Source of the DNA: an uncultured Opitutia bacterium
GTDB taxonomy: Bacteria; Verrucomicrobiota; Verrucomicrobiia; Opitutales; Puniceicoccaceae
Reading direction: 5' to 3'
Assembly: GCA_913056175.1 (NCBI GenBank)
Contig: CAJXLM010000019.1
Location: 1 to 42,956 of the forward strand
Length of the DNA: 42,956 bases
Shown here: positions 28,085 through 40,551 of the stretch, piece by piece
Layout of the letters: each line of letters opens with the position of its first letter
Position numbering within the stretch: the first letter of the stretch is position 1
Position numbers and translations under genes: made by a program
Notes under the pieces: model-generated
What the model was told of the DNA's origin: nothing
The model's database searches: none
What the model saw: only the letters and a program-made list of their open reading frames with translations

Positions 28085-28668
28085 ACCAGTTCCTCGGTGG
28101 AGAGTCCCTCCCCGTTCTGCTGGAGGGCCCGGTCGACCGCCTTCTGGGCCTCGGCGGCGCGGTAGCCGAGGGTGATGAGGGCGGCGACGGCCTCGCCGGC
28201 GGGTCCGCGCGGGGTGCCCGCGGCGGCCGCCTCCGCCGTGGCCGGGGGCAGCCCGGTCCCGGTGCCCCCGGCCACGGCGTCCTTCAGCTCGAGGACGAGC
28301 CGTTCGGCGGTCTTTTTCCCGATCCCGGGGGCCTTGGCGAGGGTGGTAGTGTCCGCGGCGGCGATGCTGGCGCGGAGCTGGTCGGGGTCCACCTTGCTGA
28401 GGAGGGTGAGGGCGGTGCGGGGACCGATCCCGCTGACCCGGAGGAGCTGGTCGAAGAAGTCGCGCTCGCCGGGGTGGAGGAAGCCGTACAGGTCCGCGCT
28501 GTCCTCGCGGTAGACCGCCCGGGTGTAGAGGAAGACCTCACCACCGGGAGTGCCGAGCTGCTGGGAAACCCGCAGGGGAATGTGCACCCCGTAGCCGGTT
28601 CCGTGGGTCTCGACGACCGCGTAGAGGGGGTGGCACTCGAGGAGGTGGCCGCGCAGGGAGACGATCAT
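28066..28668 (-). CDS. ruvA: Holliday junction branch migration protein RuvA
   Basis: A 200-residue DNA-binding subunit of RuvAB. Domain I starts at MIVSLRGHLLE. Domain II contains two helix-hairpin-helix motifs (LRVSGIGPRTALTLLS and KAPGIGKKTAERLVLELKD). A flexible Ala/Gly linker precedes the C-terminal domain III (AVAALITLGYRAAEAQKAV). The frame is open to 29088, but the ATG at 28668 gives the family N-terminus and overlaps the yejA stop as ATGA. ruvB and ruvC are not in the window. Confidence 0.95.
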   Translation of the reverse strand: MIVSLRGHLLECHPLYAVVETHGTGYGVHIPLRVSQQLGTPGGEVFLYTRAVYREDSADLYGFLHPGERDFFDQLLRVSGIGPRTALTLLSKVDPDQLRASIAAADTTTLAKAPGIGKKTAERLVLELKDAVAGGTGTGLPPATAEAAAAGTPRGPAGEAVAALITLGYRAAEAQKAVDRALQQNGEGLSTEELVRASLR

Positions 28669-30641
28669 GGTTGGTCCGGGGCGTAACGGTCGTAGACGAG
28701 GACGTCGTTCTCGTAGGTGCTGTCCCCGCGCCGCTCGGCGAGGATCCGCGAACGCTCCTCCTGGTCGATCCAGAGAAGACCGTACTGCCCGGCCCCCTGG
28801 CTGAGGCGGACGTCGAAATGCTCGGGAAAGTGGATCCAGCGCCAGTAGGCCACCCGGTAGAAGGGTACGTAGTAGCCGGGGATGAAGACGGCCTCCTCGT
28901 GGACCCGCTCCTCGAGTTGGTGGGCGAGGGCGATCTTCTCCTCGCGGGAGGTGGAGGCGCGGTAGCGCTCGATGAGGGCGTCCAGCCCGGGGTCGTCCGT
29001 GTTCGTGATGTTGTTGGTCTGCGGGCGGCCGGCGTTCGCCGAGTGGAAACCCTCCCAGTAGCGGGGGTAGGGGAGGCTGGTGTTCCACCCGGAAAACGCG
29101 ATCTGGTGCTGCTTCTCGAGGATCTGCTTGAAGGCGGAGGTCGGCTCGAGGGAGAGGATATTCAGCTCCAGACCCGCCTTGCGGGCCTCCTCCCGAAGGA
29201 TCTGGAGCACTTCCTCGCGGGGACCCTGGGAAACGGTGACCGTGAAGGAGAGGCGGTCGCCGTCCGCGTTGCGGAGGATGCCGTCCGGCCCGGGCTGGTC
29301 GAAGCCGGCCTCCGCGAAGAGCTCGCGGGCGCGGTTAATGTCGAAGGGGCGGGCGGCGAGGTCGGGGTGGGTGAAGGCGCCGAAGCCGTCCGAGGTACCC
29401 TGGAGGCGGGCGTAGTCCCCGCGGAAGTGCTTCTCGATGACCCGGTCGAAGTCCATGGCGTGGGCGATGCCGCGGCGGATGAGGGGGTCGGCGAGGTAGC
29501 CCTGGTCCTCGTTGATCCAGAGGCCGATGCTCGGTCGGGGACGCTGGTTGTAGAAGACGGCCTTGCGGATGAGGCCTCGCTGGAAAGGCTCGGCCTCGGC
29601 GCTGCGCTCGTACCAGTACTCGGGGAGGGTCAGGCCGAAGAGGTCGAACTCCCCCTTCTTGAAGCGCTCGAAGGCGATGTTCAGGTCGCGGACGATCGCG
29701 TAGTGCTTGGCGGCGGGATTGAAGCGGTGCCGGTAGAACTTGTGGTCGTTGGCCCACCAGTCCTCCACCCGGGTGAGGCGGAGGGAACGCCCGTGCTGGA
29801 TGTTTTCCGGGAGGAGCTCGTAGGGACCGGTGGTCGGCTCGAACTTCCACTGGTGCCCGGGGACCCAGTCGGGCTGGAGGGTCCCGTAGAAGTGGGCGGG
29901 CACCGGCCGCACGCTGGCGAACTCGAGGGGCTCGGGCTTCGGGGTGGAGAGGTGAATGGCGAAGGTGCGGTCGTCGTAGCGGGTGATCCCGTTGTATTCG
30001 GTGGAGTACCAGTTGTTGTACCAGGGCGCCTGGATGTGCGGCGACTGCATGAAGTAGAAGAGGTAGAAGAAATCCTCGGTGCGGACGGGCTCACCGTCGG
30101 AGAAGGTGGCGTCCTCGCGGAGGCGGTAGACCACCGTCTGCTGGTCGGGGAGGACCGCCCACTCCTCGGCGAGGGCGGCAAAGAAGCGGCCGGTCTCGGG
30201 GTGGCGGGCGACGAGGGAAACGGCGTTGTCGTCGAGGAGGGCGCTACGGAAGGAGTGGTTGGAGTCCGGCCCGACGAGGCGGACGGTGGGCGGGAAGTTG
30301 AGGAGGAAGCTGCGGAGGGTGCCCCCGCGGACTGCCTCCGGCGAGGCGAAGACAGGCTGGTCCATGCCGTCCTCCCACGAGAGGTCTGCGGGCAAGTCCT
30401 CGGGGTTGGCCTCCCGGAAGAATTCGGGGTGCTCCGCGTAGTACTCGGCCGGGGTGACCGGGGCGCCCGCCTCCCCGTCGGCGGCATCGGCAGGCGGGCC
30501 GGCGGTGGCGGGCTCCCGGGCCTCCTCCTCGGCGGAGGCGGAGCTGTCGGCCGCATCGCCACCACCGCCACAGGCCGTGAGCAGCAGGAGGGGGAGGAGG
30601 GCGAGGGTGCCTGCGGAAAGGGCTTCTCGGAAAGAACGCAT
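28665..30641 (-). CDS. yejA: Peptide ABC transporter substrate-binding lipoprotein (YejA-like)
   Basis: A 658-residue extracellular solute-binding protein, family 5. The signal ends in a lipobox, LLLTACGGGG, so the mature protein is a lipoprotein. A low-complexity Asp/Ala/Glu linker follows, then the DLSWEDGMDQPVFASPEAVRG entry typical of YejA-type proteins and long homologous stretches such as YRLREDATFSDGEPV. It lies 3 bp after yejE. The likely substrate class is oligopeptides or microcin C-like peptides, inferred from the family. Confidence 0.92.
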   Translation of the reverse strand: MRSFREALSAGTLALLPLLLLTACGGGGDAADSSASAEEEAREPATAGPPADAADGEAGAPVTPAEYYAEHPEFFREANPEDLPADLSWEDGMDQPVFASPEAVRGGTLRSFLLNFPPTVRLVGPDSNHSFRSALLDDNAVSLVARHPETGRFFAALAEEWAVLPDQQTVVYRLREDATFSDGEPVRTEDFFYLFYFMQSPHIQAPWYNNWYSTEYNGITRYDDRTFAIHLSTPKPEPLEFASVRPVPAHFYGTLQPDWVPGHQWKFEPTTGPYELLPENIQHGRSLRLTRVEDWWANDHKFYRHRFNPAAKHYAIVRDLNIAFERFKKGEFDLFGLTLPEYWYERSAEAEPFQRGLIRKAVFYNQRPRPSIGLWINEDQGYLADPLIRRGIAHAMDFDRVIEKHFRGDYARLQGTSDGFGAFTHPDLAARPFDINRARELFAEAGFDQPGPDGILRNADGDRLSFTVTVSQGPREEVLQILREEARKAGLELNILSLEPTSAFKQILEKQHQIAFSGWNTSLPYPRYWEGFHSANAGRPQTNNITNTDDPGLDALIERYRASTSREEKIALAHQLEERVHEEAVFIPGYYVPFYRVAYWRWIHFPEHFDVRLSQGAGQYGLLWIDQEERSRILAERRGDSTYENDVLVYDRYAPDQP

Positions 30642-30644
30642 GGT

Positions 30645-31700
30645 TTATCGGAAATAGGAAAACTTCTTCGGGTCAAAGGCTTCGCGGATCCCCTCCCCGA
30701 TAAAGGTGACGAGGGTGAGCACCACGACCATGGCGACAAAGGTCGAGGCGACGATCCAGGGGGCGTCCAGGCGGTTGGTCCCCTGCTGGAGGAGCTCGCC
30801 CCAGCTGGGGGTGGGCGGGGGAATCCCGAAGCCGAGGAAATCGAGGGCGGTCAGCGCGGTGATCCCGGCCACCACCGTAAAGGGGATGAAGGTGACCACG
30901 ATGGAGAGGGTGTTCGGGAGGAGGTGGCGGAAGATGATGCGGAGGGGCCCGGCCCCGATCACGCGGGCCGCCGCGATGTAGTCGCGGGCCCGCTCGCGGT
31001 AGGCGGCGGTCCGCATGTAGTTGGCCATGGCGATCCAGTTGAAGATGACCATGACCGCGAGGAGGGCTCCGATGCGGGCGGGCGCGCCGACCGCCGGGGG
31101 AATGGTCGAGGCGAGGATAATGACGACGTAGAGGAAGGGAATGTTCGTCCAGATCTCCATGAGGCGCTGTCCGGTGAGGTCGAACCACCCTCCAAAATAG
31201 CCCATGGCGCAGCCGATGAGGATGGCGAGGAGATAGGTGCAGGCCATCAAGCCGAGCGAAAATCCGAGGGCGATGCGGAAGCCGTAGACAAGCCGGGCGA
31301 GCACGTCGCGGCCGAGCGGGTCGGTACCGAGATAGTGCTGGGTGCGCGCGCTCGGGGGATAGGGCGGGAAACTGCCCTCCCGGTAGACGGACTCGTCCGG
31401 GCCGTAGGGGATGAGGGGCATGAGCACCCAGTTCGGGTTGCCGGGAGCGGCAAACTGCTCCTTCAGCGCCCGGTAGTTGGCCTCGTAAGGATAATCCTGC
31501 CCGAACTCCTCACCGGAGTATTGGCTGGCGTAGGTCGGGAAGTAGAGCCGGCCGTCGTAGGAGACCACGATCGCCCGCTGGTTGATCCAGAGCTCGGCGA
31601 GGGCTGCGACCAGAATGATCGCGGCGAAGATCAGGAAGGACCAGTAGCCGCGCTTGAGGCTGCGGAAATGCTGCAGGCGTCGGCGGGTGATCGGGTTCAT
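30645..31700 (-). CDS. yejE: Peptide ABC transporter permease (YejE-like)
   Basis: A 351-residue permease. The N-terminal segment with one TM (RRGYWSFLIFAAIILVAALAE) precedes a periplasmic stretch containing YDGRLYFPTYAS and HYLGTDPLGRDVLARLVYGFRI, then five TM helices with the EAA-loop region YRERARDYIAAARVIGAG. This long N-terminal extension is characteristic of YejE. It is separated from yejB by 110 bp. Confidence 0.94.
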   Translation of the reverse strand: MNPITRRRLQHFRSLKRGYWSFLIFAAIILVAALAELWINQRAIVVSYDGRLYFPTYASQYSGEEFGQDYPYEANYRALKEQFAAPGNPNWVLMPLIPYGPDESVYREGSFPPYPPSARTQHYLGTDPLGRDVLARLVYGFRIALGFSLGLMACTYLLAILIGCAMGYFGGWFDLTGQRLMEIWTNIPFLYVVIILASTIPPAVGAPARIGALLAVMVIFNWIAMANYMRTAAYRERARDYIAAARVIGAGPLRIIFRHLLPNTLSIVVTFIPFTVVAGITALTALDFLGFGIPPPTPSWGELLQQGTNRLDAPWIVASTFVAMVVVLTLVTFIGEGIREAFDPKKFSYFR

Positions 31701-31810
31701 CGGTGCGGGCGGCGGCGGGGACGGGGGACGCGGGCGGTGCGGTCGGGCAAGGGGGGCGCTTACGAAGGTGTGGGTCGGATCAAGGCCACGGGGGAGGAGG
31801 GCCGGCGGGC

Positions 31811-32824
31811 TTAGTCAAAGCGGATGCGCGGGTCGACGGTGGCGACGAGGAGGTCGGAGAGGAGGTTGCCCACGAGGAGCAGGAAGGAGGAGAGGAGGAG
31901 GACGCCCATGACGACCGGGTAGTCCCGCTCGATCAGGGAGGTGTACCCGAGCAGCCCGAATCCCTCGATGGAAAAGATCTTCTCGATGAGGAAGGAGCCG
32001 GCCACGAAGAGGGAGATGGCGTTGCCGAAGTTGGTGGCGATGGGGATGAGGGAGTTGCGCAGGGCGTGCCGGAAGACGGCCCGCCGGAAGGACAAGCCCT
32101 TGGCCGCGGCGGTGCGCATGTAGTCGGCGGCGAGGTTGTCGAGCAGGCTGTTCTTCATGAGGAGGGTGAGAAAGGCAAAGCTCCCCACGAGGTAACAGAT
32201 GAGCGGAAGGGCGGAGTGGCGGACGAGGTCCCAGACCTTTCCCCAGAACCCGAGGTCCGCGAAGAAGGGGCTGACGAAGCCGCCGGTGGGAAACCACTCG
32301 AGCTGGAAGGCGAAGAAGACGAGGAGGAGGGCTCCGAGGACATAGCCGGGCACGGCGTAGCCCGCGAAGACAATGATCGAGGTGATTCCGTCGAGCCGGG
32401 TGCGGTGCTTGATGGCCTTGACGATCCCGAGCGGCACGCAGACAGCGTAGGTGAACACGAAGGTGATCAGGCCGTAGTAGAGGGAAACCGGGAGCCGGTC
32501 GAAGATCATGGAGGTCACCGGAATCTGGTAGCGGTAGGACTGGCCGAGATCACCGGTGGCCACCTGTCCGAGCCATTCCGCGTAGGCGAGGTACCAGGGT
32601 TGGTCGAAACCGTAGTACGACTCGAGTTGCCGGACCTGGGCTGGCGAGAGCCCGACACCCTCCGCGCTGCTCGAGGAGCTGTCCCCCTGGGCCATCTGTC
32701 CCTGCAGGAGGGCCTGCTCCACCGGGCCACCGGGCAGGAAGCGGGTGATCGCGAAGACGAGCAGGGTGATCCCGATGAGGGTCGGGACGATGAGGAGGAG
32801 TCGGCGAAGGAAGTAGGCGCGCAT
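31811..32824 (-). CDS. yejB: Peptide ABC transporter permease (YejB-like)
   Basis: A 337-residue permease with six TM helices. The N-terminal region reads YFLRRLLLIVPTLIGITLL and is followed by FLPGGPVEQAL and the extended periplasmic loop seen in YejB. The EAA-loop reads YMRTAAAKGLSFRRAV. It is the first gene of yejB-yejE-yejA. The dual ATPase YejF expected in the operon is not found in the window, so it must be encoded elsewhere or shared. Confidence 0.94.
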   Translation of the reverse strand: MRAYFLRRLLLIVPTLIGITLLVFAITRFLPGGPVEQALLQGQMAQGDSSSSSAEGVGLSPAQVRQLESYYGFDQPWYLAYAEWLGQVATGDLGQSYRYQIPVTSMIFDRLPVSLYYGLITFVFTYAVCVPLGIVKAIKHRTRLDGITSIIVFAGYAVPGYVLGALLLVFFAFQLEWFPTGGFVSPFFADLGFWGKVWDLVRHSALPLICYLVGSFAFLTLLMKNSLLDNLAADYMRTAAAKGLSFRRAVFRHALRNSLIPIATNFGNAISLFVAGSFLIEKIFSIEGFGLLGYTSLIERDYPVVMGVLLLSSFLLLVGNLLSDLLVATVDPRIRFD

Positions 32825-33006
32825 GGCGTGTCCGGGGAGTCTCGCGGAGGGAGACGATCTCGTCCAGCCTTCCCAGACGGGGTCTTCTGGCGGGGTCCAG
32901 CGGGAGAGCTGGGCCGATTCCGGGGAGAAGGCGGGGGGATCCGTAACTGCCGAAACTTGCTTGATTTAGGGTTGTCGCAATCCCCAACCGGGGTTTCCTT
33001 GCCTTC

Positions 33007-34281
33007 ATGAAAAGTCGATTCCCGCTCCATCGCCTTCTTGCCGGACTTTCCATGCTTCTCGCCTGTGCTGTTTTCCTGCAGGCGCAGGTCGTGGAGCTCT
33101 CCCCGACCGAGGTCTCCGCCATCCGGGCAGGCGACCGCGAGGCCGTCAAGCAGGTGCTTCGCCGCAGCGGAGTCGATCTGAACGATCCCCAGGCCGTCCG
33201 GCAGGCCGTGGGTTCGCTGGTCGAGTCAGCCTCCGCCGGGGTGGACGCTGCGGGTGCCGCCGAAGCTCTCGAGGCAATCTCCTCCACCGTGATCGCGGGT
33301 GTGGTCGAGTCGGCCGCGGAGACCGGCGGGGATGTCGGATCCGCAGCGGAAGCGGCCTCGGCGGGGGCCGCGGAAAGCGCGGTTTCCGTCGCGCTCGCCG
33401 TCGGGGCGGACCCTGGATCCGCGGCGGAGGCCGCCTCCCGGGGAGGGACCCGCGGGGCGTCCGAAACGGGGAGTTCGGCGGACGTGAACGGGGACGGGGT
33501 GGTCGATAGCCGCGACCGCGAGGAGGTGGTCTCCCGCACCTCACGCGGGTCCTCCGAGGGTGCCGTGGAAGCTTCCGCCCGCTCGGGCATTGATCCTTCC
33601 CCGGTTGCGGAGCGCGCGGCGGCAGGGTCGACCGCGGCGGCCGTGGAAGGCGCTGTGGCCACGGGCGGATCGGTCGGGGACGCCGTGCGGTCCGCGACCC
33701 GTGGATCCGTACAGGGGGCCTCGCGTGGGGCGACAATTTCCGGGTTGGATACCGCCTCGCGGGAACAACTGGTAAGGAGTGTCTCCGCGGGTTCCTCCGA
33801 GTCCGCGATCACGACCGCCGCGCAGGTGGGTGCCGACTCGCTGGAGGCGGCCCAAGCCGCCTCTTCGGGCGCGGTCTCCGCCGCCGTGGAGGAGGCTTCG
33901 GCGGCAGGTGAGGACACGCGGGCGGCGGCCTCCGCCGCCTCCTCGGGAGCTGGCTCGGGCGCCGCCCGCGGCGCGGAATCGATCGGTGTCAGTGTAGAGG
34001 AAGTTGCCCAGGCCACGGGTCAGGGTGTGGTGGACGGAGCGGAAGAGGGCGCGGCCGCCACGGGAGAAGACGCCGGCACTCTGGCGGATGCGGCGACCGA
34101 GGGGGCCACCGAGGGATTGCTGACTCCTGCTCCGGCTCCCGAGCCTGAAGTGGTCGTCGCCGAGGAGGAGGTTGTCGTCGAGGAGGACACGATCGATACC
34201 GCGGATCTCGAAGATCTCGAGGCTCAGGAAGAGGAGCAGGTCACCGAACCGGCGGACGATCAGGATTACTTCACTCCCTGA
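33007..34281 (+). CDS. Secreted Ala/Ser-rich protein with ten 26-residue tandem repeats
   Basis: A 424-residue protein of unknown function. A signal peptide (residues 1-26, ending LQAQ) precedes a short globular N-terminus (about 28-93). Ten repeats follow, at 94-119, 120-145, 146-180, 181-206, 207-232, 233-261, 262-287, 288-313, 314-339 and 340-365; eight are exactly 26 residues. The consensus is Gly at 1, small residues at 4-6, Gly at 14, Asp at 16 and Ala-Ala-x-Ala-Ala-Ser at the end. The 146-180 unit is enlarged by a dockerin-like Ca2+ loop, DVNGDGVVDSRD (159-170). The C-terminal 45 residues are acidic and end in a tail shared with the gene at 35043. I know of no named family. Confidence 0.85.
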   Translation: MKSRFPLHRLLAGLSMLLACAVFLQAQVVELSPTEVSAIRAGDREAVKQVLRRSGVDLNDPQAVRQAVGSLVESASAGVDAAGAAEALEAISSTVIAGVVESAAETGGDVGSAAEAASAGAAESAVSVALAVGADPGSAAEAASRGGTRGASETGSSADVNGDGVVDSRDREEVVSRTSRGSSEGAVEASARSGIDPSPVAERAAAGSTAAAVEGAVATGGSVGDAVRSATRGSVQGASRGATISGLDTASREQLVRSVSAGSSESAITTAAQVGADSLEAAQAASSGAVSAAVEEASAAGEDTRAAASAASSGAGSGAARGAESIGVSVEEVAQATGQGVVDGAEEGAAATGEDAGTLADAATEGATEGLLTPAPAPEPEVVVAEEEVVVEEDTIDTADLEDLEAQEEEQVTEPADDQDYFTP

Positions 34282-34291
34282 TCCCACGCGG

Positions 34292-34314
34292 CGACCGTGG
34301 TGCGCCCGCGGTCG
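34292..34314 (+). terminator. Hairpin after the repeat-protein gene
   Basis: A 6-bp stem CGACCG / CGGTCG with an 11-nt loop starting 11 nt after the stop codon. No T-run follows. It may end the first transcript of the secreted-protein locus. Confidence 0.45.
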
Positions 34315-34457
34315 GCCTGCGCCATGGGGTCATGAGAGCACCCGGACCTCGTTCGGAATCGTCCTCGGTTCGGCTGGGCCGCTCAGAGAAGCGAAGGGGC
34401 AGCCTGGCCGCTCCTGGGCACGCGAAGTATTCGGGTTGGCGGCCGCGATTAGGGGTC

Positions 34458-34480
34458 GGGAAGCGGCGGCCGCGCTTCCC
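34458..34480 (+). other. Hairpin in the leader of the small secreted protein gene
   Basis: A perfect 8-bp stem GGGAAGCG / CGCTTCCC with a 7-nt loop, ending 71 nt before the ATG at 34552. Position and strength fit an untranslated-leader structure. No partner or ligand can be named. Confidence 0.45.
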
Positions 34481-34551
34481 GCACGGGTGGTGCCAATCGG
34501 TGCCGACGATCGGGCTTGCCCTTGCGACCCCGGTTCACTACCGGAGATCGC

Positions 34552-35046
34552 ATGAAATGGTTGACGGCCCTTGCCGGGTGGATCCGCCCGGTGTCCACGC
34601 GCACCTTCGCCTCCGTTGCGGCGGTCCTCGCTCTCTCCGCAGTTCCCGCGGGAGGGGAGGATCTCGAGGAAGTCGCAGCCTGCGCGGGCACGGTCATCGG
34701 TCAGTCGGTGGTCGATCTCTACTATGAGGATGCGACGGCGTTCGAGGAGGGTACCCGACTAGCGCTCCTCGCCTACTACGGCTCGATCAACGCGCGGGAC
34801 TATTCGGAGGAGGAGATTGAGGCGGCGGACCTCTTGCTCGGGGAGCGGACGGACCGGATTCTCTCGGCAGCGAACGAGGATCGTTATGATGCCGCAATGT
34901 TCGGGGAAGTGCTCGACTGCTACCGCCAGCTTGCACTCGGACTCTATGAGAACCGTGCGGTGCTCGACGCCGATGCCCAGGCCTACGAGGAAGCTGTCGA
35001 CATTTCGATCGAAGCCCTCCGCGAAACTTTCGCTCGAGAGGAATGA
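34552..35046 (+). CDS. Small secreted helical protein with two cysteines, unknown function
   Basis: A 164-residue protein. The start is ATG 34552, preceded by CCGGAGATCG (a good GGAG, rare in this window). A signal peptide covers residues 1-35. The mature part is acidic and predicted all-helical, with Cys44 and Cys123 as the only cysteines, which could form a disulfide. Its stop overlaps the next start by 4 nt (ATGA at 35043-35046), so production with the second repeat protein is coupled. No family recognised. Confidence 0.75.
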   Translation: MKWLTALAGWIRPVSTRTFASVAAVLALSAVPAGGEDLEEVAACAGTVIGQSVVDLYYEDATAFEEGTRLALLAYYGSINARDYSEEEIEAADLLLGERTDRILSAANEDRYDAAMFGEVLDCYRQLALGLYENRAVLDADAQAYEEAVDISIEALRETFAREE

Positions 35047-36689
35047 GGCAGGCAAAGGCCCTTGTGGAGCTCATGAAAAGGGGGGCGGGAGCCTGTCGGT
35101 GGGCCTTTCTGGCCTCGGTGGTCCCGCTCGCAATTGCCCCGGCTCTCGCCACGGACCACGAGCCTCGTTTCTGCAACGGGGACTGTATCGACCTAGTGAA
35201 CCAAGGGGTTCGGCCCCCGCCTGACGGTCTCTACAACCAATTGCGCTCCGTCTTCTCCGGCGCCGGCGTTCGAATACGAATATTCCCGCTCGGAAGATCG
35301 GTCGACACGGACCCGGCCCGCCGCCCCATCCCACTTCGCACTCTCCAGATCCCGCGTCCTCCGCCCATTCTCACCGCGGACATGATTCCTAATCCAAGGC
35401 TTGGTCCGGAGGAGCAGGGGGCAGGTGGGAACCGGGCCGGGGAAGAGCAAAGGCCCGGCGGAAGAGAGGCGTCCAGGCCCGGCGATTCGATGGGGGCGGG
35501 CCCGTCGGGAGAAGGTTCCCGGCCGGAGGATCGGCCGGCGACGCGGGCCTCGGAAGAAGGAAAATCCCCTTCCGAATCCGATCTCCCCGCGTCTGCGGAC
35601 ACTCTCTCTCCGGAGCTCGAAAGGTCACCGGGTCTGCTCCAGCCCGCTCCCGTACCGGATCTTGGGAGGTTGCGTCCTGGACAAGCCGCGGCGGTTCGTG
35701 CGGGAAACCAATTCGTCGTGATCGGTCTTTTCCGGTCGTCGGGCTTCGTCTGGGACAACCCGGAGGATGTCCGTCGTTTCGCTTCCCTGCTCCTGCGCAC
35801 TGTCACTGAGGGAGTACCCGCGGAGCAGCTCGGCTCGGTGGTGGAGGCGATCTCCTCGGCGGTCATGGCGGCCCTCCTGCCGCCCTCGCCGGAAGCCGCA
35901 AGGGCGAGTTCGGAAGCGGTCGCCTCCGGTCTCGCCGAGGGAGCCGTCGCGGTAGCCGTGGAGGGTGGGCTTAATCCTGCCTCTTTGGTGGAACGCTCCT
36001 CCGCCAGTGCGACCCGGGCCGTGGTGGAGCGCGCGGTGGCGACGGCGAGCCCGGTTCCCCCCGTGGTTCGCGATGCGGCGCGGGGAGCCGTGGTGGGGAG
36101 CGTCCGCGGTACGGTGCTCTACGTGAATCCACTCGAGGATTCTCTGGAACCAAGGGAAATCCTCCGCGGGGCCGCGGCGGGCGCGGCGGAGGCTGCCGTG
36201 AGCGCCGCGGCGGCCGAGGGAGTGGATGCAGGTGATGCCGTCGAGGCTGCCTCGGAGGGCGCGGTCGCCGCGGCGATCGAGTCGGCCGCTGGGGGAGAGG
36301 AGGAGGCGCTCAATGCGGCGGCGGCAGCGTCCTCCGGTGCGACGAGTGGGGCGCTGCGGGGATCGCGTTCCGCGGGTCTCGATCCGGGGAGGGGTGCGAT
36401 GAGAGCGTTGGCAGGGGCGCGGGTAGGTGCCCAGACGGGCGCGACGGCCAGGGGAGAGAACCCCTTCGATCTGATTCGTGCCGCCGGGATCGCTTCCCTG
36501 GAGACAAGCTCGGAAGAGGGAGGCCCCGCCGACGATCCGGTGTCCACGGAGGTTTCGGTGGCCGCAGCGAACTTGGAAGGGGTGGGGGAGGATTCCCTTG
36601 ACCCGGCCGACCTCGAGGACCTCGAGGTCCAGGAGGGGGAACAGATCACTGTTCCGGTCGACGACGAGGAATACTTTGCTCCGAACTGA
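35043..36689 (+). CDS. Secreted 26-residue-repeat protein, paralogue of the one at 33007
   Basis: A 548-residue protein. The signal region is residues about 14-37 (an alternative start is Met11). A CNGDC motif (44-48) is followed by a long Pro/Gly/Glu-rich low-complexity region (about 90-205). A helical segment (238-280) shares 'EAIS-S-(T/A)-V' with the paralogue. Repeats occur at 296-321, 322-347, 348-379, 380-405, 406-431 and 432-457; all but one are 26 residues. The C-terminus ends in the same acidic tail as the paralogue (ADLEDLE-x-QE-x-EQ, then an aromatic YF and Pro). Same repeat, same tail and same locus indicate duplication and divergence. Function unknown. Confidence 0.82.
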   Translation: MRQAKALVELMKRGAGACRWAFLASVVPLAIAPALATDHEPRFCNGDCIDLVNQGVRPPPDGLYNQLRSVFSGAGVRIRIFPLGRSVDTDPARRPIPLRTLQIPRPPPILTADMIPNPRLGPEEQGAGGNRAGEEQRPGGREASRPGDSMGAGPSGEGSRPEDRPATRASEEGKSPSESDLPASADTLSPELERSPGLLQPAPVPDLGRLRPGQAAAVRAGNQFVVIGLFRSSGFVWDNPEDVRRFASLLLRTVTEGVPAEQLGSVVEAISSAVMAALLPPSPEAARASSEAVASGLAEGAVAVAVEGGLNPASLVERSSASATRAVVERAVATASPVPPVVRDAARGAVVGSVRGTVLYVNPLEDSLEPREILRGAAAGAAEAAVSAAAAEGVDAGDAVEAASEGAVAAAIESAAGGEEEALNAAAAASSGATSGALRGSRSAGLDPGRGAMRALAGARVGAQTGATARGENPFDLIRAAGIASLETSSEEGGPADDPVSTEVSVAAANLEGVGEDSLDPADLEDLEVQEGEQITVPVDDEEYFAPN

Positions 36690-37377: not shown

Positions 37378-38469
37378 TCAACCTTTTGCAAAAGGGAAGA
37401 CGAGCTGGGGGTCGATCCAGCAGGGGACGGTTTCACCGGGCGGAACCGGGGTGGTCAGCCGGTGGGAGGCGCGGAGGATGGGACCGTCCGGCTCACTCTC
37501 CCCGGTCGGCACCACCCGGAAACGGGTCATCCGCCGTCCCCCGATGGGCCGGGAATCGAGCACCCGCGCCTGGAAGGAGGGGTGGCGCGGGCCGTCCGGG
37601 AGGGGTTCGCGGAACTGGAAGGCCTGCTCCCGGAAGATCACCTCGACGGGGCCTTCGCGAACCTCCCGACCCTCGCCCACGGGCCAGGACCCGAGGACGG
37701 TGTGGAGGACGCCACCTTCCACGCTTCCCCGAAGGCTGTGGGTTTCGCCGAAAAACCGGGCGGTGAAGGGGTTGACCGGGCGGAAGAGGAAGTCGTCGGG
37801 AATGCCCTCCTGGACCACACCGCCGCGCTCCATGAGAAGGATCCGGTCGGCGAGCTGGGTCGCCTCGTCGCTGTCGTGAGTGACGAGGACGGTAGCGGTG
37901 CCCTCCTCCTGGAGGATACGGCGGGTCTCCTCGCGGACGCTGAAGCGCAGATTGGCGTCGAGGTTGGAGAAGGGCTCGTCCATGAGCATCACCGCCGGAC
38001 GCAAGGCCACCGCCCGGGCGAGGGCGACCCGCTGCTGCTGGCCCCCGCTGAGGGTGTGGGGGAAACGGTCCTTCTCGGCGGCGAGTCCGACCTGGGCGAG
38101 GACTTCCCGGGCCCGCCGGTAGCGCTCGGTTGGCTCGATCCGGGACAGCCCGAAGACGATGTTCTGGAGGACGTTAAGGTGGGGGAAGAGGGCGTAGTCC
38201 TGGAAAACCATCGCGATGGGTCGCTTGTCCGGCGCGACACCCCGTCCAGCCTGGGCGACCTTCCGCCCGTTCATGAGGATCTCGCCGCGGTCGGGGACTT
38301 CGAGGCCGCTGGCGAGCCGGAGAAGGGTGGTCTTGCCGCACCCGGAGGGTCCGAGGAGGCAGAGGATTTCCCCGGGGGCGAGGTCGAAGCTGATGCCGGC
38401 CACGCTGGGGGTTTTTCCATAGCGGTGGGACACCTCGCGGAAGGAGAGGGCGGGGGGAGAATCGATCAT
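37378..38469 (-). CDS. fbpC: Iron(III)-type ABC transporter ATP-binding protein (FbpC-like)
   Basis: A 363-residue CUT1/FbpC-class ATPase. It shows Walker A GPSGCGKTT, Q-loop VFQDYALFPHLNV, signature LSGGQQQR, Walker B VMLMDEPFSNLD and switch LVTHDSDEA, followed by a C-terminal regulatory (TOBE-like) domain of about 125 residues. The open frame extends to 38532, but the ATG at 38469 directly precedes the conserved start (SFREVSHRYG). It is cotranscribed with the permease 40 bp upstream. Sulfate, thiamine or spermidine cannot be excluded from the ATPase alone; the two-domain permease favours iron. Confidence 0.88.
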   Translation of the reverse strand: MIDSPPALSFREVSHRYGKTPSVAGISFDLAPGEILCLLGPSGCGKTTLLRLASGLEVPDRGEILMNGRKVAQAGRGVAPDKRPIAMVFQDYALFPHLNVLQNIVFGLSRIEPTERYRRAREVLAQVGLAAEKDRFPHTLSGGQQQRVALARAVALRPAVMLMDEPFSNLDANLRFSVREETRRILQEEGTATVLVTHDSDEATQLADRILLMERGGVVQEGIPDDFLFRPVNPFTARFFGETHSLRGSVEGGVLHTVLGSWPVGEGREVREGPVEVIFREQAFQFREPLPDGPRHPSFQARVLDSRPIGGRRMTRFRVVPTGESEPDGPILRASHRLTTPVPPGETVPCWIDPQLVFPFAKG

Positions 38470-38509
38470 GGCAGGGAGCGGCTGGGTGCGTACGGGAAAG
38501 CTCCGGACC

Positions 38510-40204
38510 CTACTGCTCGCCCCGGCCGCCACGCATCATACGGCTGAGGAAGACGACCGGAACGAGTCCTGCCGCCACGATGAGGAGGGCGGGCGCTGCC
38601 GACTCGGCGAAGCGCTCGTCCGAGGCGAGCTGGTAGATGCGCACGGCGAGGGTATCGAAATTGAAGGGCCGGATCATCAGGGTGGCCGGCAACTCCTTGA
38701 GAACCTCCACGAAAACGAGCAGGGCGGCGGCGAGACTGCTCGCCCGCAGCAGGGGGAAGTGGACCCGCCCGAGCACGCCGAGCGCGCTGGAGCGGAGGGT
38801 GCGCCCGGCCTGGTCGAGGTTGGGCTGGATGCGCGCCATCCCCGCATCCACGGCGTGCAGGCCGAGAGTGAGAAAGCGTACGAGGTAGGCGAAGACGAGG
38901 GCGAAAAGGGTGCCGCTCACGAGTCCGGTGGCCCCTCCAAGGAGGCGATCCACCCCGCCGAGGAGGAGGAGGATGCCCACCGCGATGACCGAGCCGGGCA
39001 CGGCGTAGCCGAGGGAAGCCATCCCGGTGAGCCCGCGCGAGGCCGGCCCGGCGCACAGTCGGTTGTTGTAGGCGAGAAGCAAGGAAGTGGCCACGGCGAG
39101 CACCGCGGCCACCGTGGCGAGGAGGAGGCTGTGGCCGGTCCAGGCGAGGGAGTCCTCCAGGGAGGGAAGGAAGCCCGCCGTGAAGGAGGCCTCCACGAGG
39201 ATGCCTACGGGCACGCCGAAGCCGAGGAGGACCGGCAGGAGGCAGAAGGCAAGGGCCCCGATCCCGCGCCAGCCCCGCAGGGGCCAGCCGGGCAGGTCCT
39301 GCCGTTTGGTGGTGGTCCCGTGGAAACGGCGCTTGCCGCGGGAGAGGCGCTCGAGGACGAGGAGGAGAACGACCACCCCGAGGAGGCCGGCCGCCAGCTG
39401 GGCCGCCGCGACGGGCGCCCCGAGGCCGAACCAGGTCCGGTAGATCCCGGTCGTGAAGGTGTCCACGGCGAAGTAGTCGACCGCCCCGAAATCGGCCAGC
39501 GACTCCATGGCTACGAGGGCAATGCCGCCGGCCAGGGCCGGGCGCGCCATGGGCAGGGCGACCCGCCAGAAACTGCGGGTGCGCGACATCCCGAGGGTGC
39601 GGGAGGCGTCGAGGACGCAGACACTCTGCTCGAGGAAGGAAGCCCGGCAGAGGAGGTAGACGTAGGGATAGAGGACGAGCGAGAAGAGGACGATGGCTCC
39701 TCCGAGGGAGCGGATCGGCGGGAACCACAGCTCGCCGGCCCCCAAGCCGGTCACCGAGCGCAGCCAGGTCTGGACGGGCCCATCGAAGACGAGGAAATCG
39801 GTGTAGGCGTAGGCCACGAGGTAAGTGGGCATGGCCAGCGGCAACAGGAGGAGCCAATCCACCCAGCTCCGCCCGGGGAAGCGGTAGACCGCGGTGAACC
39901 ACGCGGTGCTCACCCCGAGCAGGCCCGCACCGGTCCCGGCACCGAGGGCGAGGAGCACGCTGTTCGTCACGTAGGTCCCGAGGACGGTTTCCCGGAGGTG
40001 CTGCCAAGTGCTTCCCCCTGCCTCAAAGAGGGGACTCGCCACGATCACGAGGATGGGGGAGGCCACGAAGAGAGAGACCGCCGCCGCCGCCACGAACAGC
40101 CACGAACGACCCTTGCGGCGGAGCCCGCGGGGCTCCCGCAAGTCCTCGCTCCACAGCGAGGGATCGGCCGGTTCGGTCTCAGCGCCAGCCGGCAGGGTCG
40201 CCAT
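38510..40204 (-). CDS. fbpB: Iron(III)-type ABC transporter permease, two fused domains (FbpB-like)
   Basis: A 564-residue permease with about 12 TM helices in two homologous halves. The first half contains PLAMPTYLVAYAYTDF and the EAA-loop DASRTLGMSRTRSFWRVALP; the second contains GYAVPGSVIAVGIL and LDQAGRTLRSSALGVLGRVHFP. This double-domain form is typical of Fbp/Sfu iron permeases. A TTG-started frame reaches 40279, but the ATG at 40204 seems more likely. The periplasmic iron-binding protein FbpA is not in the window. Confidence 0.88.
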   Translation of the reverse strand: MATLPAGAETEPADPSLWSEDLREPRGLRRKGRSWLFVAAAAVSLFVASPILVIVASPLFEAGGSTWQHLRETVLGTYVTNSVLLALGAGTGAGLLGVSTAWFTAVYRFPGRSWVDWLLLLPLAMPTYLVAYAYTDFLVFDGPVQTWLRSVTGLGAGELWFPPIRSLGGAIVLFSLVLYPYVYLLCRASFLEQSVCVLDASRTLGMSRTRSFWRVALPMARPALAGGIALVAMESLADFGAVDYFAVDTFTTGIYRTWFGLGAPVAAAQLAAGLLGVVVLLLVLERLSRGKRRFHGTTTKRQDLPGWPLRGWRGIGALAFCLLPVLLGFGVPVGILVEASFTAGFLPSLEDSLAWTGHSLLLATVAAVLAVATSLLLAYNNRLCAGPASRGLTGMASLGYAVPGSVIAVGILLLLGGVDRLLGGATGLVSGTLFALVFAYLVRFLTLGLHAVDAGMARIQPNLDQAGRTLRSSALGVLGRVHFPLLRASSLAAALLVFVEVLKELPATLMIRPFNFDTLAVRIYQLASDERFAESAAPALLIVAAGLVPVVFLSRMMRGGRGEQ

Positions 40205-40551
40205 CGCAGGGGGAATGCGCCAACCATTCGACGGGAGAGCGACCGTCGGACTCGGGCTTGTCTGGAGGGTGAGCCGCAAGGACGGGCGGCGGTGTCGTGA
40301 GCCTTAGCTTCCTTTCCTTCCGGCCCAAGATTTCGGTCCCACGCCCCAGCGCACTGGACAACAACCGTCCGTTCATAGGGAAAGAATGAGTCTCAATAGC
40401 GTTAGCCTGTCAAGCAGGGCTGCTGCGGGAGGGCGACGGAGGGCGGAAAGCGGCTGGCTTTGCGCTGGGGGGAGCGGGACCACCGGAAGCGGGATCTGGA
40501 GGGGAGTTCGCCGAGCAGGGCCTGGGCCGGAGCTCCCGAGGGGGGTGCGGC
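40205..40551. other. Regulatory region between fbpB and nadK
   Basis: This 347-bp region lies upstream of fbpB and downstream of nadK (both minus strand). It contains a TTGACA (minus strand, 40408-40413), a possible -35 box, with a Fur-like site just downstream. A convincing -10 hexamer is not visible. No gene seen. Confidence 0.45.
40382..40400 (-). promoter_or_regulatory. Candidate Fur box upstream of fbpBC
   Basis: On the minus strand the 19 bases GCTATTGAGACTCATTCTT match the classical E. coli Fur box at 13 of 19 positions (counted by hand). The TGAGACTCA core is a perfect 4-1-4 palindrome. It lies 8 bp downstream of a TTGACA, where a repressor would block the promoter, and upstream of iron-transport-type genes, which supports the reading. 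Confidence 0.5.

Follow-up and report, generated by a model that had tools for sequence, protein, structure and literature searches.

The locus under study lies on the forward strand of a window of 42,956 nucleotides, the whole stretch of DNA that was analysed. An open reading frame at 33007-34281 (+) encodes P0001, a predicted secreted protein of 424 residues with tandem 26-residue repeats. G+C contents at the three codon positions of this frame are uneven and coding-like (0.77/0.60/0.76), and homologues in the same frame were found in other genomes. An antisense ORF at 32550-34016 has flat codon-position G+C (0.68/0.72/0.70) and is not coding-like. The ORF at 33007-34281 is a real gene. Residues 1-26 (33007-33084, +) were judged by eye to be a Sec-type signal peptide with an LQA end before Gln27; a helix is predicted at residues 7-23 with low pLDDT, and homologues with an intact start have, also by eye, an equal layout. 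We infer from sequence that P0001 is exported via Sec. The mature N-terminus of nearly all homologues, again by eye, is a Gln following the likely cleavage site, a residue that could turn into pyroglutamate.

The signal peptide is followed by an N-terminal cap at residues 33-75 (33103-33231, +), for which AlphaFold2 (AF2) predicted three short helices (33-40, 44-54 and 61-75, pLDDT 93-97) and which is kept in homologues. Predicted single-helix 26-residue repeats occupy residues 81-372 (33247-34122, +), as indicated by AF2 helices from 81-105 to 356-372, profile units at 107-352 and autocorrelation. A putative EF-hand/dockerin-like calcium loop, DVNGDGVVDSRD, is situated between two repeats at residues 159-170 (33481-33516, +). 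The protein ends with an acidic linker of low confidence (pLDDT 46-68) and a conserved tail (34123-34278, +), with TEPADDQDYFTP at 34243-34278; the last 40 residues carry a net charge of -18. The earlier note on this DNA had described the signal peptide and short cap, which were recovered here, and had passed over both the conserved tail and a paralogue at 35043-36689 (+).

The paralogue, P0002, is 548 residues long with a Pro-rich N-terminal extension, seven profile units and the same C-terminal tail, and is 44% identical to P0001 over residues 179-424 of the latter. Between the two genes lies P0003 (34552-35046, +), a small predicted secreted protein of 164 residues that gave no Pfam match over the cut-off and no NCBIfam match. 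The coordinates show that the P0003 stop codon overlaps the P0002 start, so P0003 and P0002 may be co-transcribed, and P0003 may be a partner. The third-position G+C of the three genes (33007-36689) was 0.72-0.76 and that of the ABC transporter gene next to them 0.91, a gap that may reflect a different origin or expression. Both flanks (28665-32824 and 37378-40279, minus strand) encode parts of peptide-type ABC transporters (SBP_bac_5, BPD_transp_1, ABC_tran).

The 26-residue repeat unit

Autocorrelation over P0001 residues 61-375 peaked at lag 26 with 25.6% identity, followed by lag 52. The mean BLOSUM62 score over the same residues was 0.77 at lag 26 versus a maximum of 0.41 over 2000 shuffles (lags 13/26). 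The 26-residue period of P0001 is far above chance. The family profile detected nine units at residues 107-352 with spacings of 26, 35, 26, 26, 29, 26, 26 and 26 residues, exactly 26 in six of the eight steps, and a mean identity between units of 33% (range 15-50%). The 35-residue step is a unit plus a 9-residue insert carrying the calcium loop Asp159-Asp170, and among the profile units of family members inserts of 3, 9 or 11 residues stretch single repeat steps. Repeated inserts of other types, such as GNGANSRIIIDTTDID, were seen in the loops between the repeats of homologues at loci L018 (79-1662), L056 (3103-4464) and L060 (4676-6205), those of L018 and L056 being 11 residues over the standard step. 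The locus had been described earlier as ten near-exact 26-residue repeats, eight of exactly that length. The period and the regularity of length hold, though not every spacing is exactly 26; the near-exact label, wrong for P0001, is nearly right for the homologue in genome G263 with a mean repeat identity of 71%.

The register adopted here has Gly at positions 1, 14 and 18 and Asp at position 3; the pattern of Gly 1, Gly 14 and Asp 16 reported in the earlier note agrees with Gly 1/14 and Asp 3 after a shift of 13. Unit statistics cover 128 units drawn from 24 sequences, the very set on which the profile was trained and one that includes the doubtful genomes G021 and G088. The commonest residues per position were G-I-D-V-A-A-A-A-E-A-A-S-S-G-A-T-Q-G-A-V-E-A-A-A-E-A, with Gly14 at 96%, Gly18 at 80%, Ala19 at 82%, Ala10 at 78%, and Gly or Ala at position 18 in 98%. 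Twenty shuffles of the 24-sequence set produced 3 profile matches in total versus the 128 real units. By helical moments, small residues and charged or amide residues fall on separate sides of the helix (282 and 148 degrees). A glycine halfway along a helix carries a cost that only the close passage of an adjacent helix offsets, so the line of Ala10, Gly14, Gly18 and Ala22 is read as a GxxxG-type packing face. At the helix ends, Asp3 would suit an N-cap and Gly1 a C-cap.

Predicted fold and distribution of the family

The AF2 model of P0001, computed from a thin alignment of 8 rows, had a mean pLDDT of 87.0 and a pTM of 0.81, with the repeat blocks mostly at 94-98 and the calcium loop at about 56-70. 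It contains 11 long helices at residues 81-372, each unit consisting of a ~23-residue helix and a short turn. A member from genome G792, only 25% identical to P0001, gave a mean pLDDT of 82.2 and a pTM of 0.78, and the regular part of its model has helices of about 22 residues separated by 3-4 residues. Both models thus have one helix per ~26 residues. Tandem helical units in an elongated array, the criterion for an alpha-solenoid, were predicted with high confidence in these two homologues. The earlier note had suggested a regular helical solenoid or a Gly/Ala-packed helical bundle and named structure prediction as a check; the two separate predictions fit that suggestion and gave a confident repeated fold.

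The solved structures ranked highest for both models were de novo designed helical repeat proteins. The top match of both was 8cws_A (Z 21.8, rmsd 4.0 over 313 for P0001; Z 23.5, 3.7 over 317 for G792), and 8cwy_A reached Z 17.7 and 19.3 respectively. The designed repeat protein DHR4 (5cwb) scored Z 14.2 with rmsd 3.0 over 197 (P0001) and Z 15.2 with 3.2 over 195 (G792), a match that is marginal on its own as mostly helical models often reach a best Z near 14. Next after DHR4 in both lists were 7mwr_B and 6vfi_A, with 9drl_A level with 6vfi_A in the P0001 list. The best natural chains had Z 6.4 (P0001 model) and 8.4 (G792 model), although a chain missing from such lists may still share the fold. 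Foldseek TM-scores were 0.58/0.55 for 8cws_A and at most 0.40 by query length in the other 49 matches listed. Matches to viral structures, mostly ankyrin proteins with TM of at most 0.18, were dismissed as chance or compositional.

Sequence identity in the structural alignments with 8cws, 8cwy and 5cwb was 11-13%, and the family profile weakly matched 5cwc (E 0.0041) and 5cwb (E 0.046). The designs described in the 8CWS paper (PMC12253981) are fusions of oligomers with designed helical repeats. These designed proteins resemble the two models in that helices of about equal length run antiparallel and repeat regularly, but they are artificial, whereas the P0001 family, predicted to have one helix per 26-residue unit, has a fixed GxxxG, a secreted N-terminus, a cap, a tail and natural variation in length.

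No Pfam or NCBIfam model covers the 26-residue repeat, in agreement with the earlier statement that it belongs to no named family. The Pfam models for HEAT, ARM, TPR, ANK and Sel1 gave no match at E <= 1 to P0001 or P0002 and none at E <= 0.1 to 11 aligned members. Two homologues scored 21.3 and 17.2 bits with Phage tail protein X (PF05489; cut-off 22) over repeat stretches and P0001 had no such match; PHROGs and NCBIfam matches of the 11 members were judged chance or compositional. No paper on this repeat family was found in open-licence PMC text. Natural alpha-solenoid subfolds listed in part of PMC11514114 are HEAT, ARM, TPR, PPR, ANK and Sel1-like, and the same passages give a HEAT unit as about 40 residues with two helices and an ARM unit as 42 residues with three. 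The models share with these folds an elongated helix stack of tandem units, but natural alpha-solenoids as described there have two or three helices per unit, whereas P0001 is predicted to have one per 26 residues and has no Pfam match to any of these families. The repeat represents a new lineage-specific family and is probably a one-helix-per-unit solenoid, an alpha-solenoid in kind.

The family was searched for with P0001 or an 8-member profile in genome sets that overlap and include the genome of origin where it was drawn. Matches were found in 3 of 52 near-relative genomes (one of them the doubtful G021), in 6/384 and 7/384 genomes of class-level sets (the latter including the doubtful G088), in 6 of 387 genomes of the phylum (G088 included), in 5/150 of family f14 and in 11/43 of family f11. 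The other three genomes of the organism's own family (G001-G003) yielded no homologue. We judged 17 genomes to hold clear members, leaving out weak matches in G021 (L006/L021), G088 (L028/L064) and G000:C11 (L004). At E <= 1e-5 the profile matched 22 ORFs (20 loci examined). Full-length clear members have from 3 (G130) to 13 (one G231 copy) detected units, with 10 in G263, as the earlier note had anticipated in proposing to look for homologues with varying repeat numbers.

Paralogues occur near each other in G000 and G231. A HisA-like gene adjoins the repeat gene in 7 loci of f11 genomes, and in 4 loci of one f14 genus it is flanked by ATP-synthase genes on one side and FeoB-like genes on the other (gene names by eye). 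Because orthologues retain their neighbours, inheritance within lineages appears vertical; the distribution is patchy, so the function is not a core one. No relatives were found in viral contigs or in phage and plasmid records, and none in genome contigs by short exact peptide patterns, a search insensitive for this family.

Calcium loop and C-terminal tail

The match of P0001 to Dockerin_1 (PF00404) fell short of the 22.9-bit cut-off when the protein was scanned (21.1 bits) and passed it when the genome was scanned (23.6 bits), and it covered only profile positions 26-52 of 57, that is, one loop and not two loop/helix repeats. A homologue in G402, clipped by a contig end, begins with a near-identical calcium loop; apart from P0001, a single one of 22 homologous ORFs had the loop motif. 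Cohesin (PF00963) was found in none of six genomes at E <= 0.01, among them the genome of origin (96.5% complete), and the sole dockerin match in these six was P0001 itself. P0001 has in common with type I dockerins one canonical calcium loop and the helix that follows, but it amounts to half a dockerin set within a solenoid, in genomes without detected cohesin (0/6). In view of the half-match, the absence of cohesin from the six genomes and the single dockerin match, the feature is taken as a lone calcium-type loop and not as evidence of a cellulosome. Loop 159-170 may bind calcium.

Most members have an acidic or Pro-rich stretch followed by a hydrophobic-[STA]-P motif at the C-terminus. The loose pattern [VIFLYT][STA]P-x(0-9)-end occurred in 17 of the 24 sequences, with 3.2 expected from shuffled ends, and in 24 of 345 other ORFs; a strict pattern occurred in 8 of 24 (0.85 expected) and in 4 of 345. 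Both patterns were picked post hoc, after inspection of the tails, and the 24 sequences include those of the doubtful G021 and G088. The tails of P0001 and P0002 are 65% identical over 34 residues, and a tail search of their own genome returned only these two paralogues.

Similar tails were found on three FecR-domain proteins of relatives, in G013, G402 and G263. The tail match of the G263 FecR protein had E 7.3e-8 and 79% identity over 29 residues; its last 14 residues are the same as those of the repeat protein in that genome, with 9 silent base changes between the genes. The FecR-like gene of G013 adjoins the repeat gene and encodes the C-terminus EVVIVSPLTHT; it was so called by likeness to a G821 neighbour that matches PF04773, whereas genome G013 had no match at E <= 1e-5. 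The tail of the G402 protein is TPEDNVQVPSPSGRQ. Most of the FecR proteins listed (30 loci) had no visible tail, and several loci gave a longer wrong-frame ORF in place of the FecR frame. The likeness is confined to the tail of some FecR-domain proteins (PF04773): P0001 has no FecR match in the Pfam scan and its genome none at E <= 1e-5, and the G263 FecR protein repeats every 30 residues, not 26. This protein (L087, a 565-residue open frame) has an Ala-rich 30-residue repeat after its FecR domain; a test for homology between this part and the 26-residue repeat was negative, and the family profile does not match it.

Wider use of the tail was surveyed in 400 kb of G013 with 359 greedy gene calls, 70 of which had a crude signal-peptide pattern; the FecR neighbour, which straddles the border of the stretch, was uncounted. 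The strict pattern was present in 3 of these 70 and 4 of the 289 others, the loose pattern in 4 of 70 and 9 of 289, and by eye a true tail was present only on the repeat gene. A general C-terminal sorting signal was rejected given this result and the restriction of the tail to the two paralogues in the genome of origin. The tail could instead be a specific docking peptide shared with FecR-domain proteins in some lineages. Because no wider use was found in the 400 kb of G013, conservation is the one line of evidence that points to docking.

Proposed role of the exported repeat protein

We propose that P0001 is an exported one-helix-per-unit alpha-solenoid that acts as an envelope scaffold, spacer or docking rod, an explanation that as a whole has an even chance of being correct. 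Each 26-residue unit would start with a helix-capping Asp at position 3, continue as a helix of ~23 residues and end in the Gly turn at position 1 of the next unit. A GxxxG-type face, made up of the small residues at positions 10, 11, 14, 18, 19 and 22 (A/A/G/G/A/A), would allow successive antiparallel helices to pack tightly, and the number of units would set the length of the rod. The loops would accept inserts, of which the putative calcium-binding EF-hand loop would stiffen or gate the rod locally. P0001 would be exported by Sec and carry a disordered acidic linker, and the conserved short tail at its end would probably dock it to an envelope partner. The proposed role is that of a stiff scaffold, spacer or binding rod, located either on the cell surface or in the periplasm. 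The structural part, an exported and extendable helical rod or solenoid, is highly probable judging from the models. The scaffold or docking role of the rod is a more tentative proposal. A broader claim, that P0001 is a natural single-helix-repeat solenoid of a geometry so far seen only in computer designs, with strict GxxxG packing, extendable length, a calcium-loop switch and tail docking shared with FecR proteins of the same envelope system, is unlikely to hold in full.

The predicted solenoid could be an artefact in which AF2 overstates the order of an Ala/Gly-rich repeat that in reality is unstructured or forms a loose helical polymer. The alignments are thin, and part of PMC11795689 reports that AF2 gives confident but unrealistic beta-solenoids for perfect random repeats. 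The repeats of the P0001 family, unlike those, are imperfect and helical; they are just 33% identical in P0001 and keep a position-specific Gly/Ala/Asp pattern across families, the P0001 insert falls between predicted helices and a less regular homologue gave the same result, all of which make an artefact quite improbable. Alternatively, P0001 may be a secreted extracellular matrix or adhesin rod, with no specific partner, whose repeats only hold the acidic tail or cap at a distance from the cell, or link cells. The export signal (by eye), the variable repeat number, the proximity of paralogues in G000 and G231 and the acidic linkers of most members are consistent with such a rod, but Pfam and NCBIfam scans revealed no domain known for adhesion, carbohydrate binding or anchoring and the tail is conserved, not drifting, which leaves this reading a minor though appreciable chance.

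A calcium-triggered or cohesin-dependent scaffold, with the dockerin-like loop tethering P0001 in a cellulosome-like complex, would account for the canonical loop DVNGDGVVDSRD, its Dockerin_1 half-match and the near-identical loop in the G402 homologue. It is nevertheless very unlikely given the partial dockerin profile, the absence of cohesin from the six genomes and the rarity of the loop motif among homologous ORFs. Phasins are cytoplasmic, and P0001 has a signal peptide (by eye). An ice-binding or lipid- or polymer-coating helical protein, antifreeze-like or phasin-like, is suggested only by analogy with Ala-rich helices; with no such match in Pfam or NCBIfam, it is scarcely credible.

If the predicted fold of the one-helix-per-unit rod is right, a solenoid with a single helix per repeat, best matched among solved structures by de novo designs, is in use in nature, and the family would offer those who design proteins a natural point of comparison that varies in length and accepts inserts in its loops. 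It would also provide a testable model for an unannotated family of exported proteins.
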